This document shows, piece by piece, positions 42,129 to 47,444 of a stretch of DNA of 64,000 nt. The notes under the pieces are model-generated. The model was not told the DNA's origin and ran no database searches. It worked only from the letters and a program-made list of their open reading frames with translations. A program made the position numbers and the translations under genes. Position 1 is the stretch's first letter. Every line of letters starts with the position of its first letter. Source of the stretch: Bombella favorum (lineage in GTDB: Bacteria; Pseudomonadota; Alphaproteobacteria; Acetobacterales; Acetobacteraceae); assembly GCF_014048475.1 (NCBI RefSeq), contig NZ_NWUS01000001.1, positions 186,001 through 250,000 of the forward strand, given 5' to 3'.

Positions 42129-44324
42129 TTATTTTGCATCCTGCTCTGGCAGAGCATAAACGACCAGCTGATCGGAGACAGGTGTTCCCATAAGGTGATG
42201 CCCCCCTGCCATGATGGCGACATATTGCCGACCATTTACAGCATAGGTCATAGCATTGGCCTGCCCGCCTCCTGGAAGCACATCAGTCCAGAGCGTTTTG
42301 CCCGTTTTAAGGTCAATGGCATGGATCTGATTGTCACTGGAAGCACCAATGAAGGCGACTCCGCCCGCTGTCATGACGGACCCACCGTTATTTGGTGTGC
42401 CGATTGTTAGCGGCATGCCTGTCGGTATGCCCCATGGCCCATTGGCGCGAGCCGAACCAAAGGGACGTTGCCAGAGGACCTTATGTGCCTTTAGGTCGAT
42501 GGCGGTGACCATGCCGTAGGGTGGAGCGTTGCACATCACCCTCGTAAATTCATTCCAGAATGGTCCAACCAGGGCACCGTAAGGGGTTTCGGCTTGTGCT
42601 GCATTACCGGCTGTCATGCCATGACGTGGTGTGTATTGGGGAACATCGACCGGAATCAGGCGTAGCTGGTCCGCTGTTTTCCGGGTTACGAGCTGGTTGT
42701 ACATGGGAACATTGTTCCAATTTGCCAGTACGATGCCTGTTTGCGGATTATAGGAAATGCTGCCCCAGTCACTGCCGCCATTGTAGCCTGGTGCTTCAAT
42801 CCACGGGCGGTCGAGGGAGGGCGGTGTGAACTCGCCAACATAATGGGCACGCCGGAACTTGATGCGGCAAGCGAGTTGATCCAGTGGCGACATACCCCAC
42901 ATGTCAGCTTCTGTGAGTTTTGGGAAACCAAGACGAGGCACACCGACAGACCATGGCTGCGTTTGTGTACGCTGGTCATCCTTCACGCCACCTTCGGTTG
43001 GAACGGATTTTTCCACGACGGGGAAATCTGGCAGGGGCTTCCCTGTCCGGCGGTCGAGGATGAAGGTTTGCCCCCGTTTTGTAGGCATGATGAGGGCAGG
43101 AATGACGCTGCCATCATCAGCGTGATAATCGAACAGCGTGGCCTGAGAGCCGATATCATAATCCCAGACATCTTTATGGACGGTCTGGAAGACCCAGCGT
43201 GGTTCACCAGTACGGACATCCAGCGCAACTACAGAGGATGAGACCTTGTTCTCTGCATCGCTGCGCATAGCGCTATAGTAGTCAGCTGATGAGTTGCCCA
43301 TAGGGACATAAACCAGCCCTAAAGCATTATCGCCCGTCATGGCTGTCCAAGAGTTAGGTGTACCACGACTGTAATAATGGTCTTTGTCTGGCTGGTGATG
43401 ATCGTTTGGATTATTGACATCCCATGCCCAGAGGAACCTGCCGCTTTCGGCATCATACCCCCGGATGACACCAGACGGCGCCCAGCGGCGTTGGCCGTCC
43501 AGCACCTCATGATTGACGACAATCACACCATTGATGATGGGAACTGGGCTTGTCACCCCGACGAAACGCGGAACAGACCAGCCCATACCCTGCATGAGAT
43601 TGACCTGCCCACCATGACCAAAGCCTTCGCAGAGTTTCCCGTCATCAGCGTTTACGGCAATCATGCGGTTATCCAGAGTGCCTTCAATGATGCGGTTATG
43701 GCAGGGCTGCCCCTCTGGTACCGTGGACGAGGTATAGTAGGTGACGGACTTACAGGCGGATGTGAAGGGGATAGCATCGTAACTCTCGTGAGAGTGGAAA
43801 CGCCATTTCTCTTTGCCCGTTGTGGCATCAATGCGCATCATGTCGTTGGTGGCTGAGCAGAGATACAGGGAATCCCCAATTTTGATCGGTGTGGTCTCCG
43901 GTGCCAGTCGGTTGAGGTTACCCTTAGGGACCAGAACGCCTGTGTGATAGACGAAGGCCCGTTGCAGTTTCCCGACATTCTCCGGGGTGATTTGCTTTAA
44001 CGGGGAATAACGGGTTGCTCTGTCGTCGTGCCCGTAGGCAGGCCAGTCCTCAGGTTTGGGGTTGGCACTTTCTTGCGGAACAGCCTGCGGCAATTGGTCA
44101 ATTGGCAGTTCGTCAACATCCGGCAAATTGGCTGCGTTAACGCCCGTTGCCTGTGGCGTTTCAGGGGCGGGCGGATGGTAAATGCTGGAGGCTACGTCCT
44201 CTGGAGGAATGGCCCTGTGAGTGGTGCTAGGGGGAGCAGTTTCTTGTGCCTGCGCTGCTGGGAATGACGCACCGAGCACAGTACCGCTCAGAAGGATACC
44301 AAGAAGATAGGCCTGATTACGCAT
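42129..44324 (-). CDS. sldA: PQQ-dependent polyol (glycerol/sorbitol/arabitol) dehydrogenase large subunit, copy 1
   Basis: The periplasmic PQQ quinoprotein that oxidises polyols and passes electrons to ubiquinone through SldB. The 731-residue product has a signal peptide (MRNQAYLLGILLSGTVLGAS to AAQAQ), a proline-rich linker and a propeller with blades such as ALDVRTGEPRWVFQ and IDLKTGKTLW. QVNLMQGMGW, HHQPDKDHYYSRGTPNSW and HKDVWDYDIGSQ are typical of the family. It lacks its own membrane helices; the separate membrane subunit gene is upstream, and the 8-bp overlap (ATGCGTAA) couples them. The substrate range of each copy is unknown. Confidence 0.88.
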   Translation of the reverse strand: MRNQAYLLGILLSGTVLGASFPAAQAQETAPPSTTHRAIPPEDVASSIYHPPAPETPQATGVNAANLPDVDELPIDQLPQAVPQESANPKPEDWPAYGHDDRATRYSPLKQITPENVGKLQRAFVYHTGVLVPKGNLNRLAPETTPIKIGDSLYLCSATNDMMRIDATTGKEKWRFHSHESYDAIPFTSACKSVTYYTSSTVPEGQPCHNRIIEGTLDNRMIAVNADDGKLCEGFGHGGQVNLMQGMGWSVPRFVGVTSPVPIINGVIVVNHEVLDGQRRWAPSGVIRGYDAESGRFLWAWDVNNPNDHHQPDKDHYYSRGTPNSWTAMTGDNALGLVYVPMGNSSADYYSAMRSDAENKVSSSVVALDVRTGEPRWVFQTVHKDVWDYDIGSQATLFDYHADDGSVIPALIMPTKRGQTFILDRRTGKPLPDFPVVEKSVPTEGGVKDDQRTQTQPWSVGVPRLGFPKLTEADMWGMSPLDQLACRIKFRRAHYVGEFTPPSLDRPWIEAPGYNGGSDWGSISYNPQTGIVLANWNNVPMYNQLVTRKTADQLRLIPVDVPQYTPRHGMTAGNAAQAETPYGALVGPFWNEFTRVMCNAPPYGMVTAIDLKAHKVLWQRPFGSARANGPWGIPTGMPLTIGTPNNGGSVMTAGGVAFIGASSDNQIHAIDLKTGKTLWTDVLPGGGQANAMTYAVNGRQYVAIMAGGHHLMGTPVSDQLVVYALPEQDAK

Positions 44325-44697
44325 CGATACTGACTTTCTGGTTACGGAGAAGGTGAGGTATGCAAGCAGCAACGGCAATAGCCAGCAGGGTGGGGCCGAA
44401 GAGGCGAGGTAGCCACCCCCAGAAGTGGAAGCCAACCTCATAGATGGTCCAAGGTATGGTCAGGACCCAAGCGAGCAAATAGCCCCACGCTCCCGCAATG
44501 TTCTGACGGAAGAGGTAAACACCGGAAATGCAGAGGAGGATCCCGCATGGGGTGTAATACCAGGACCCACCCAAAAGAATGAGCCATGACCCAAAAATGA
44601 CGAAATAAAGACCGAAGAGCAGAATCAACAGGGCAAGTATCCAGACGAGCACATCGGCGACCCCTGGTTTCTTCTTCGGATAAGAGAAAAAAGACAC
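44317..44697 (-). CDS. sldB: Polyol dehydrogenase membrane subunit SldB, copy 1
   Basis: A 126-residue membrane anchor and ubiquinone-site subunit with about four hydrophobic helices. Its sequence (LLILLFGLYFVIFGSWLILL, PRLFGPTLLAIAVAACIPHL) resembles the N-terminal membrane domain of membrane-bound glucose dehydrogenase, as known for SldB. Translation starts at GTG with GGAG eight bases upstream. Copy 2 shares nearly the same core, but the first 20 residues differ sharply (SFFSYPKKKPGVADVLVW here). Confidence 0.88.
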   Translation of the reverse strand: MSFFSYPKKKPGVADVLVWILALLILLFGLYFVIFGSWLILLGGSWYYTPCGILLCISGVYLFRQNIAGAWGYLLAWVLTIPWTIYEVGFHFWGWLPRLFGPTLLAIAVAACIPHLLRNQKVSIDA

Positions 44698-44754
44698 AGT
44701 TCTGTCTCCAGTAAAATAAAGAACATACTGTGACTATGAGGGCAGAATATCAGA

Positions 44755-44810
44755 ATAGAAAAATAGATAAATAAGATAGTTTTATATATTTTATAGGTAA
44801 ATTAGATTAA
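44755..44810 (-). promoter_or_regulatory. Conserved upstream elements of sldBA copy 1
   Basis: Blocks ATAGAAAAATAGATAAAT (44755-44772) and ATAGGTAAATTAGATTAA (44793-44810) recur almost exactly before copy 2. Block A lies 58 bases before the GTG in both copies. They probably contain promoter or operator sequence; no factor is identified. Confidence 0.5.
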
Positions 44811-44816
44811 TTTTTG

Positions 44817-44854
44817 AAAAGTACTGGCCACATGAACAGGTCATGTGGCCAGTA
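44817..44854 (-). terminator. Rho-independent terminator of sldBA copy 2
   Basis: A perfect 14-bp stem (44822-44835 with 44841-44854), a 5-base loop and a TTTT tail on the minus strand. It is 10 bp after the sldA copy 2 stop and separates the two operons. Confidence 0.88.
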
Positions 44855-44863
44855 AATAGTGTA

Positions 44864-47074
44864 TTACTTTTTATCAGCTTCCGGTAGCGCATAGACGACC
44901 AGAGCATCAGAAACAGGGCTACGCATAAAGTGATGCCCCCCTGCCATAATGGCAACATATTGCCGACCATTTACGGCATAAGTCATGGCATTGGCCTGTC
45001 CCCCGCCGGGCAGGACGTCAGTCCAGAGTGTCTTGCCTGTCTTGAGGTCAATGGCATGTATCTGGTTATCAGTCGAAGCACCGATGAATGCTACGCCGCC
45101 TGCTGTCATAACGGACCCACCGTTGTTTGGTGTGCCGATTGTCAGCGGCAGGCCTGTCGGTATACCCCAGGGGCCATTGGCACGAGCTGAACCAAGTGGC
45201 TTCTGCCAGAGGACCTTATGTGCTTTCAGGTCAATGGCTGTAATCACTCCATATGGTGGCTCATTGCACATCATCTGGGTAAAGCTGTTCCAGTAAGGGG
45301 TAACAACAATACCATATGGTGTTTGCGCCTGTGCCCCGTTGCCTTCAGCCCCACCGGCACCAGGATTATACTGCGGTGAGTCGATGGGAATCAGCCCCAT
45401 CTTGTCGGCTTTCTTGCGGCTCACCAGCTGATCATACATAGGCAGGCTGCTCCAGTTGGCGAGCATGATGCCTGTCTGCGGGTTGTAGGAAATGCTACCC
45501 CAGTCGCTGCCACCATTGTAGCCGGGATATTCAAGCCACGGCTGCTTGATAGTAGGTGGTGTGAACTCACCAACATAATGGGCACGCCGGAACTTGATGC
45601 GGCAAGCTAGTTGATCCAGAGGGGAGATGCCCCATGTGGCTGCTTCTGTCAGTGGCGGGAAGCCAAGGCGAGGCACGCCGATAGACCAAGGCTGCGTTGG
45701 AGCCCGTGGATCATCTTTAACAAAGCCAGGGTTAGGAGCAGGTTTTTCCACGACGGGGAAATCTGGCAAGGGCTTCCCTGTCCGGCGGTCGAGGATGAAG
45801 GTCTGTCCCCGTTTTGTAGGCATGATGAGGGCAGGAATGACGCTACCATCATCAGCGTGATAGTCGAACAGCGTGGCCTGAGAGCCGATGTCATAATCCC
45901 AGACATCCTTATGGACGGTCTGGAAGACCCAGCGTGGTTCACCAGTGCGGACATCCAGCGCAACTACAGAGGACGAAACCTTGTTCTCTGCATCGCTGCG
46001 CATAGCACTGTAATAGTCAGCAGCAGAGTTACCTGTGGGAACATAAACCAAGCCCAGAGCATTATCGCCGGTCATGGCGGCCCAAGAGTTGGGCGTACCA
46101 CGGCTGTAATAATGGTCTTTGTCCGGCTGGTGATGATCGTTTGGATTATTGACATCCCATGCCCAGAGGAACTTGCCGCTTTCGGCATCATACCCCCGGA
46201 TGACACCGGACGGTGCCCAGCGGCGTTGGCCGTCCAGCACTTCATGATTGACGACAATCACACCATTGATGATGGGAGGTGCCGTTGTCATAGCCACAAA
46301 GCCGGGGACGGACCAGCCCATGCCTTGCATGAGATTGACCTGCCCACCATGACCAAAGCTCTCGCAGAGTTTGCCGTCATCAGCATCAACAGCAATCAGT
46401 CGATTATCTAATGTCGATTCGATGATGCGGTTATGGCAGGGTTGCCCCTCCGCAGCGGTGGAAGAGGTGTAGTAGGTGACAGCCTTACACGCTGCGGTGT
46501 AGGGGATGGCATCATAGCTTTCATGGGCATGGAAGTGCCATTTTTCCTGCCCTGTAGCTGCATCGACACGCATCATGTCGTTTGTGGCGGAGCAGAGATA
46601 CAAGGAATCCCCAACCTTGATCGGCGTAGTTTCTGCCGCCCATTTATTGGGTTTGTCTTTAGGGGGAAGGCTGCCGGTATGATAAACAAAGGCCCGCTGC
46701 AATTTCCCGACATTTTCCGGTGTGATTTGTGTCAGGGGGGAGAAGCGTGTGGCCTGATCGTCACGCCCGTAAGCGGGCCAGTCCTCCGGCTTGGGATTGG
46801 CACTTTGCTGCGGAACAGCCTGCGGTAGCTGATCAATTGGTAGTTCATCAATGTCCGGCAGATTGGCCGGATTTACGCTGGGAGGTTGCGGCGTTCCAGG
46901 AGCTGGATCATGGAAAATGCTGGATGTCGCCTGCTCCGCTACCGGGGTGTCATTATCTGGGCCGGGTGTTTCAACGGAGGGCGGGATCTGTGCTCGAGCC
47001 GTCTGGAAGGGAAGTGAGGCCCCCAGAACGGTACCCGTCAGAAGAACCCCGAGGAGATAAGCCTGATTACGCAT
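44864..47074 (-). CDS. sldA: PQQ-dependent polyol dehydrogenase large subunit, copy 2
   Basis: A 736-residue paralogue of copy 1, similarly secreted (MRNQAYLLGVLLTGTVLGAS) and with the same propeller blades and PQQ-family motifs. The N-terminal linker (TPVAEQATSSIF) and several loops are different from copy 1, for instance TTAPPIINGV, ERYP-free segments near residue 430 and the variable region NPGAGGAEGNG near residue 570. Its GTG-started partner gene overlaps by 8 bp. The two copies may differ in substrate or in regulation. In Gluconobacter oxydans relatives of these genes also exist as more than one set (family knowledge). Confidence 0.88.
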   Translation of the reverse strand: MRNQAYLLGVLLTGTVLGASLPFQTARAQIPPSVETPGPDNDTPVAEQATSSIFHDPAPGTPQPPSVNPANLPDIDELPIDQLPQAVPQQSANPKPEDWPAYGRDDQATRFSPLTQITPENVGKLQRAFVYHTGSLPPKDKPNKWAAETTPIKVGDSLYLCSATNDMMRVDAATGQEKWHFHAHESYDAIPYTAACKAVTYYTSSTAAEGQPCHNRIIESTLDNRLIAVDADDGKLCESFGHGGQVNLMQGMGWSVPGFVAMTTAPPIINGVIVVNHEVLDGQRRWAPSGVIRGYDAESGKFLWAWDVNNPNDHHQPDKDHYYSRGTPNSWAAMTGDNALGLVYVPTGNSAADYYSAMRSDAENKVSSSVVALDVRTGEPRWVFQTVHKDVWDYDIGSQATLFDYHADDGSVIPALIMPTKRGQTFILDRRTGKPLPDFPVVEKPAPNPGFVKDDPRAPTQPWSIGVPRLGFPPLTEAATWGISPLDQLACRIKFRRAHYVGEFTPPTIKQPWLEYPGYNGGSDWGSISYNPQTGIMLANWSSLPMYDQLVSRKKADKMGLIPIDSPQYNPGAGGAEGNGAQAQTPYGIVVTPYWNSFTQMMCNEPPYGVITAIDLKAHKVLWQKPLGSARANGPWGIPTGLPLTIGTPNNGGSVMTAGGVAFIGASTDNQIHAIDLKTGKTLWTDVLPGGGQANAMTYAVNGRQYVAIMAGGHHFMRSPVSDALVVYALPEADKK

Positions 47075-47444
47075 TGTGGTGTTCCTTCTGGTTACGAAGA
47101 AGGTGAGGTATGCAGGCAGCAACGGCAATAGCCAGCAAGGTGGGGCCGAAGAGGCGAGGCAACCATCCCCAGAAGTGGAAGCCAACTTCATAGATGGTCC
47201 AAGGTATGGTCAGGGCCCAAGCGAGCAAATAGCTCCAGGCTCCCACGGGGTTTTGGCGAAAGAGATAGACACCGGAAATGCAGAGAAGGATCCCGCATAG
47301 GGTGTAATACCAAGACCCACCCAAAAGAATGAGCCATGACCCAAAAATGACGAAATAAAGACCAAAGAGCAGGATTAGTAGAGCCAGAGCGTAGGTAATT
47401 AGGCTCGCAATTCCTAGCTTTGGTCTGGAAGATGATGGTGACAC
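47067..47444 (-). CDS. sldB: Polyol dehydrogenase membrane subunit SldB, copy 2
   Basis: A 125-residue membrane protein, parallel to copy 1, with about four hydrophobic helices. After the divergent N-terminus (SPSSSRPKLGIASLITYA) it is nearly the same as copy 1 from LALLILLFGLYFV onward. The start is GTG with GGAG eight bases upstream, in the same distance as copy 1. It forms an 8-bp coupled overlap with the sldA copy 2 start. Confidence 0.88.
   Translation of the reverse strand: MSPSSSRPKLGIASLITYALALLILLFGLYFVIFGSWLILLGGSWYYTLCGILLCISGVYLFRQNPVGAWSYLLAWALTIPWTIYEVGFHFWGWLPRLFGPTLLAIAVAACIPHLLRNQKEHHNA

Follow-up and report, generated by a model that had tools for sequence, protein, structure and literature searches.

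A tandem pair of putative PQQ polyol dehydrogenases

The window analysed here is a 64,000-nucleotide stretch of the Bombella favorum genome (1.97 Mb, 7 contigs), and its minus strand carries a tandem sldBA-sldBA pair predicted to be of the PQQ polyol dehydrogenase type. A racemase/pyrE-like region borders the pair on one side and a chorismate-mutase-like region on the other, as judged by eye from the open reading frames. Unit 1, first in the order of transcription, comprises sldB (47067-47444, GTG start), which encodes a small membrane subunit matching the N-terminal positions 2-103 of TIGR03074, and sldA (44864-47074), which encodes the large subunit (PF01011, E = 1.3e-199). Unit 2 comprises sldB (44317-44697), also matching the N-terminal part of TIGR03074, and sldA (42129-44324; PF01011, E = 1.1e-197). 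Longer sldA reading frames run from 47191 and 44441, 39 codons too early and within sldB; alignment places the conserved starts, with signal-peptide-like sequence, at 47074 and 44324. Among named relatives, Bombella intestini R-52487 is the closest; the window's sldA products are 98% and 99% identical to its copies.

PF01011 spans its whole profile (1-595) in both SldA copies, as in the eight-bladed PQQ propeller. TIGR03074 is split between the subunits, with SldB covering positions 2-101 and 2-103 and SldA covering 143-783 and 144-783; that SldA alone falls under the curated cut-off is expected of a split protein. The separate small SldB upstream corresponds to the membrane domain of the one-piece glucose dehydrogenase. 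In Foldseek, the SldA model (pLDDT 74.8, medium confidence) had quinoprotein dehydrogenases as its top matches, the best being 8gy2_A (TM 0.56, rmsd 7.1); pLDDT is below 50 for residues 574-580, and the model served for the fold comparison only. We take Asp466, Lys493, Asn607 and Asp730 of Escherichia coli Gcd to be active-site residues of membrane glucose dehydrogenase. The equivalents of these residues and of His775, which affects KM according to PMC5982196, are all conserved in SldA of unit 1 (5/5, by alignment with Gcd), and the position of His262 is not, being Thr. From the domain, the subunit split and the active-site residues, the two units are predicted to be SldBA-type membrane PQQ polyol dehydrogenases. 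A third PQQ dehydrogenase, 37% identical, is encoded elsewhere in the genome (G000:C5:13429-15432), and a relative of 36-37% identity is present in 11/11 Bombella genomes.

Mosaic identity between the two units

The original prediction was that 43008-43260 and 45743-45995 in the two sldA genes align without gaps and differ at 10 of 253 bases, with near-identity extending to synonymous sites, and these counts proved exact. At the offset of 2735, all 84 residues (84/84) are identical, nine of the differences fall at third codon positions and one at a first, and the segment occurs at two places only in the window's own genome. The region just outside and the 5' parts of the genes had been described as far more diverged, in agreement with 25/79 differences between 42929-43007 and its partner (Fisher p = 2.6e-10); the wider flanks of the segment differ at 213/879 and 211/977 bases. 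When we permuted the 571 codons that specify the same residue in both sldA copies (Met and Trp excluded), none of 20,000 permutations was as low as the best observed stretch, 81 codons with 10 differing codons.

A two-state hidden Markov model (HMM) assigned low divergence to 43008-43271, to 43362-43553 and to four further short stretches, so the sldA pair of the window has more than one tract; the model independently set a tract edge at 43008. The first converted tract, which holds the originally predicted segment, thus covers 43008-43271 in unit 2 and 45743-46006 in unit 1, as seen in the divergence profile, trees, base counts and HMM. The second was delimited by the HMM and covers 43362-43553 in unit 2 and 46097-46288 in unit 1. 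The sldB genes show the anticipated nearly identical core and abrupt N-terminal change: pS is 0.93 and 0.60 in the first windows and 0.15-0.40 in the core. From the repeat comparison and trees, the homogenised sldB core extends over 47086-47385 in unit 1 and 44336-44635 in unit 2, the two being 90% identical.

GC-biased conversion was considered and rejected. Fourfold-site GC in the core is 0.66 and 0.68, slightly above the neighbouring segments, and single-copy relatives trend alike (0.56 vs 0.42-0.56).

Synonymous divergence across Bombella

Eleven Bombella genomes were searched for sldA. Both copies are found in 7/11 (the window genome, B. intestini, B3987, B. apis, B. pluederhausensis, B. 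mellum and B. saccharophila), and a single copy in 2/11 (B. dulcis, unit-2-like, and ESL0385, unit-1-like); of the remaining two, G007 has its genes cut by contig ends, and in G010 only the 36% relative was found. In 35-codon windows, mean orthologue pS, calculated without the window-B. intestini pair, is 0.47-0.77 all along sldA. Between the copies of one species it drops to 0.00-0.19 somewhere in sldA in 7/7 two-copy species, with minima of 0.11 in the window genome, 0.04 in B. intestini and B. pluederhausensis, 0.08 in B. mellum, and 0.00 in B3987, B. apis and B. saccharophila. These minima sit at overlapping but non-identical places.

In the silent-site score test, at most 1/1000 permutations reached the observed value in 6/7 species pairs (0 in the window genome, B. 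intestini, B3987, B. apis and B. saccharophila, 1 in B. pluederhausensis), and B. mellum was the weakest and not significant (139/1000). The longest-run test gave 34/1000 for the window genome, 27/1000 for B. mellum and 0/1000 for the other five. Among between-species pairs, 5/113 reached 5/1000 or less in the silent-site test, and most of these involve the window genome, B. intestini and B3987, or B. saccharophila and ESL0385; conversion common to related lineages would yield such significant between-species tracts. Mean silent identity is 0.68 for within-species copies vs 0.50 for orthologues. The longest exact identity between Bombella copies is 48-185 bases, and three orthologue pairs of distant species have no exact identity of at least 30 bases. 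Synonymous divergence between the copies is not uniform along the gene: the HMM gained 12.9-45.6 log units over a uniform rate in 7/7 paralogue pairs, and for nine control pairs of the same copy the gain was -1.1 to 4.0. At synonymous sites, paralogues are closer than orthologues in bounded tracts, as in interlocus gene conversion.

Strong synonymous-site constraint in the middle of sldA, imposed by codon choice, by RNA structure or by an overlapping gene, might produce a low-divergence core without recombination, and the core is indeed also the part most conserved at the protein level. However, same-copy orthologues in the core (mean pS 0.52-0.63, windows at columns 375 to 420) are as diverged as elsewhere, copies from different species are equally far apart there, and the same-copy control pairs have no low-rate segment. 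The flat orthologue profile refutes this explanation, to which we attach practically no probability.

We also considered an assembly artefact, in which repeat collapse overwrote one copy. In the B3987 assembly, both sldA copies are interrupted by N stretches at the same position, within the homogenised core (L108 5579-5600 and 8287-8304), where collapsed repeats are possible, and two G007 contigs (L012 1-889 and L021 1-1165) end inside sldA at both sides of the core, breaks that were probably caused by the near-identical copies. Recent conversion would itself cause such breaks, however. The window tract keeps 10 scattered differences, so reads of both copies were separated, and tract positions differ between separately assembled genomes; an artefact is thus very improbable.

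Segment phylogenies

Phylogenies were compared for 10 sldA segments (18 rows) by AU tests, without G007 and G010 (2/11 Bombella). Segment edges were picked after viewing the pS profile, and the by-species constraint let the window genome mix with B. intestini and B. saccharophila with ESL0385. As originally predicted for conversion, the central sldA segment and the sldB core group by species and the sldA ends by copy. For columns 368-451 (43008-43259), grouping by copy is rejected (p-AU 2.4e-68) and grouping by species is not (0.31). The reverse holds at the sldA 5' end (columns 0-61; by-copy 0.10, by-species 5e-113) and in columns 540-639 (42444-42743; by-copy 0.41, by-species 4e-107); columns 125-189, 190-264 and 452-539 likewise reject by-species only. 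Tracts by species with flanks by copy are the pattern of interlocus conversion.

Of the ten segments, two (columns 62-124 and 640-744) fit neither simple topology and one (columns 265-324) is compatible with either, because tracts differ between species. In columns 325-367, by-copy grouping is rejected (p = 4e-4) and by-species grouping has p = 0.049. These four segments have mixed histories that are compatible with recurrent tracts but do not prove them.

The sldB tree comprised six species, B. saccharophila (which lacks the second sldB) and ESL0385 being excluded. In the sldB core, by-copy grouping is rejected (p-AU 1.1e-4) and by-species grouping is not (0.33). Pairing the window genome and B. 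intestini by copy is rejected as well (p-AU 0.003), and joining each species with itself is not (0.31), which argues that conversion continued after these two split. A donor signal appears at third positions of columns 290-324, a stretch of only 35 codons, where unit 1 of the window genome and of B. intestini is 0.83 and 0.77 identical to B3987 unit 2 vs 0.74 and 0.69 to B3987 unit 1. This tentatively suggests transfer from unit 2 to unit 1 in the window/B. intestini lineage; B. saccharophila points the other way.

Age of the duplication and single-unit loci

Both sldA copies are common to the genus Bombella, with the same unit order and flanks. In a quick protein tree, the 16 Bombella rows group together (99), as do the unit-2 genes (99) and, weakly, the unit-1 genes (37), and eight Gluconacetobacter rows group together apart from Bombella. 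We conclude that the Bombella duplication is older than the sampled species and separate from that of Gluconacetobacter. If each species had instead duplicated the unit recently, within-species copies would be closer than orthologues, as they are over much of the gene (silent identity 0.68 vs 0.50). Against such separate duplications, grouping by copy holds across species at the 5' end, in columns 540-639 and for 31 copy-specific residues, the species have their unit order and flanks in common, and the protein tree joins the unit-2 genes (99) and does not contradict unit 1 (branch support 37). Separate duplications therefore have hardly any claim, and the original view that an old duplication with later recombination fits the mosaic better than uniform drift is supported by the genus-wide copies, non-uniform divergence and conflicting segment trees.

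Single-unit and incomplete loci are also found in the genus, and we read them as further outcomes of recombination between the units. The B. dulcis unit (L037 6751-9319) combines a unit-1-like sldB 5' end with a unit-2-type sldA between conserved outer flanks; its sldB start has an identity of 0.80 with B. mellum unit 1 and of 0.57 with unit 2 (45 and 60 bases compared). It looks like the product expected from a crossover between the units. ESL0385 has unit 1 only, with conserved outer flanks. In B. saccharophila, which has no sldB in unit 2, the second sldA is preceded by about 140 bases with a palindromic, terminator-like stretch (L036 6887-7034). Given that the sorbitol dehydrogenase of Gluconobacter oxydans is reported to require SldB (title of Shinjoh 2002, listed among the references of PMC8102297), both SldA proteins of B. 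saccharophila likely share one SldB.

A retained copy-specific block and its parallel in Gluconacetobacter

Columns 540-639 (42444-42743 in unit 2, 45179-45478 in unit 1) group by copy in all species and stand out in the divergence profile, trees and residue counts. A residue was counted as copy-specific when the two copy sets do not overlap. In Bombella, 38 such residues occur over 728 columns; in the 662 columns that are free of gaps, counted from column 62, there are 31, and the 100-column block accounts for 15 of these. The rate of the block among 12 single-copy outgroups is ordinary (0.25, vs 0.15-0.27 for the other segments starting at column 125). By alignment with E. coli Gcd, Asp466 and Lys493 map to the core and Asn607 to the start of the block; some copy-specific columns adjoin the positions of His262 (199, 201), Asn607 (551) and His775 (723, 725, 726).

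A second genus has an independent tandem pair. One scan with 7 kb flanks found two sldA copies in 9/77 loci, six in Bombella and three in Gluconacetobacter (G. asukensis, G. tumulicola and G. aggeris). Of 200 sampled genomes of the family, 31 have a close sldA, 27 of them outside Bombella, and the only two-copy genome among these 27 (G181) matches the G. asukensis locus in sequence. The G. tumulicola copies share 528 identical bases, with 182 same-residue codons free of silent change (0/5000 permutations), and this tract corresponds to columns 365-549 of the Bombella alignment; G. asukensis (1592/5000) and G. aggeris (383/5000) have no significant run. In Gluconacetobacter, 33/661 columns are copy-specific, with 16 in the 96 block columns, a count from which the G. 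tumulicola conversion removes columns in 365-549 by construction. In the two species without such a long tract, difference density after column 62 is highest in the block (19/96 in G. asukensis, 20/96 in G. aggeris), the two segments before it having 3/81 and 11/88 differences in G. asukensis and 6/81 and 9/88 in G. aggeris. The copy-1 proteins of Gluconacetobacter (L081, L083, L086) have a long branch and small deletions in the block, and they may be specialised or relaxed.

When the analysis was limited to columns variable among the 12 outgroups, 7/14 copy-specific residues fell in the block in Bombella (53/323 columns; p = 0.003) and 12/24 in Gluconacetobacter (51/323 columns; p = 4e-5). 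Since the block was defined on Bombella, only the Gluconacetobacter p value is an independent test. Only three columns are copy-specific in both genera.

The block is probably one of functional divergence in both genera. An alternative that keeps real, if lesser, weight is that it is functionally meaningless, being the fastest-evolving part or one that conversion missed by chance; divergence itself blocks recombination, so an early-diverged block would protect itself. Against this, the block has an ordinary outgroup rate, yet it contains 15/31 and 16/33 of the copy-specific residues. A broader proposal seems to us plausible, although we would put it slightly below an even chance: the pairs of both genera may be in the same modular regime, in which conversion shares the core and selection keeps the block from Asn607 onward different, so that conversion would map the part that sets the substrate.

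Discussion

The mosaic identity, with a core that groups by species, ends that group by copy and flat orthologue divergence, is a direct observation. We hold it to be very likely that it arose by an old duplication of sldBA with recurrent gene conversion. In this scenario, the whole sldBA unit would have been duplicated in tandem in the Bombella ancestor, and the units would then have diverged at their 5' ends and in the inner block. Homologous recombination between the neighbouring direct repeats would have repeatedly copied short stretches, of tens to several hundred bases, leaving the flanks unexchanged. Such copying would bring synonymous divergence almost down to zero in the core of sldB and in central sldA, independently in different species, and would have persisted even after the window lineage split from B. 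intestini. We suspect that the process is RecA-type recombination, by copying or by a short double exchange that then became fixed, and that the 5' end and the 42444-42743 block are held apart by selection since the two enzymes may have different tasks.

The process is of a familiar kind; what is new is the locus at which it is described. PMC6053082 reports that recurrent gene conversion makes paralogues in bacteria evolve in concert over long periods and, as in Bombella, same-species paralogues are closer than orthologues, synonymous sites included, recurrently in many lineages. There, 22/26 genes encode members of stable complexes, and the word dehydrogenase is absent from the main text. Bombella differs in that only segments are homogenised and others stay copy-specific.

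The duplication itself was already known. PMC9147383, in the part available, reports a membrane-bound alcohol dehydrogenase gene of undefined substrate that is present twice in the Bombella genomes it covers, with three exceptions, ESL0385 among them; from the presence pattern, the duplicate pair is almost certainly the one described here. That part does not mention gene conversion for the duplicate, and the word recombination is absent from its main text. It describes the ESL0385 copy as truncated, whereas the single sldA found here (L038 7001-9322) has an open frame over query residues 1-767. Like Bombella, G. oxydans WSH-003 has two homologous PQQ polyol dehydrogenase units, sldBA1 and sldBA2, and sldBA2 is inactive on D-sorbitol despite high homology (PMC8927921, available part, which describes neither their arrangement nor conversion); orthology to the Bombella units is not implied. 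Among the matches listed for Bombella and acetic acid bacteria, by titles and abstract openings and with most subscription papers outside coverage, we found no report of conversion of these dehydrogenase genes. Also new are the Gluconacetobacter tandem pair, with its 528-base tract in one species, and the parallel core-and-block pattern.

Segment-wise concerted evolution is clear and repeatable in these bacterial genes, being seen across seven species of one genus and replicated independently by a tandem pair in another. Since the segments differ in history, trees or identity values computed over entire genes are misleading for these dehydrogenases. As a short stretch, the retained block is a convenient candidate for a possible difference in substrate between the two enzymes of these bee-associated acetic acid bacteria. 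We consider the parallel core-and-block pattern the part most worth following; if the modular regime is true, improvements in the converted core would reach both enzymes without loss of the two specificities.
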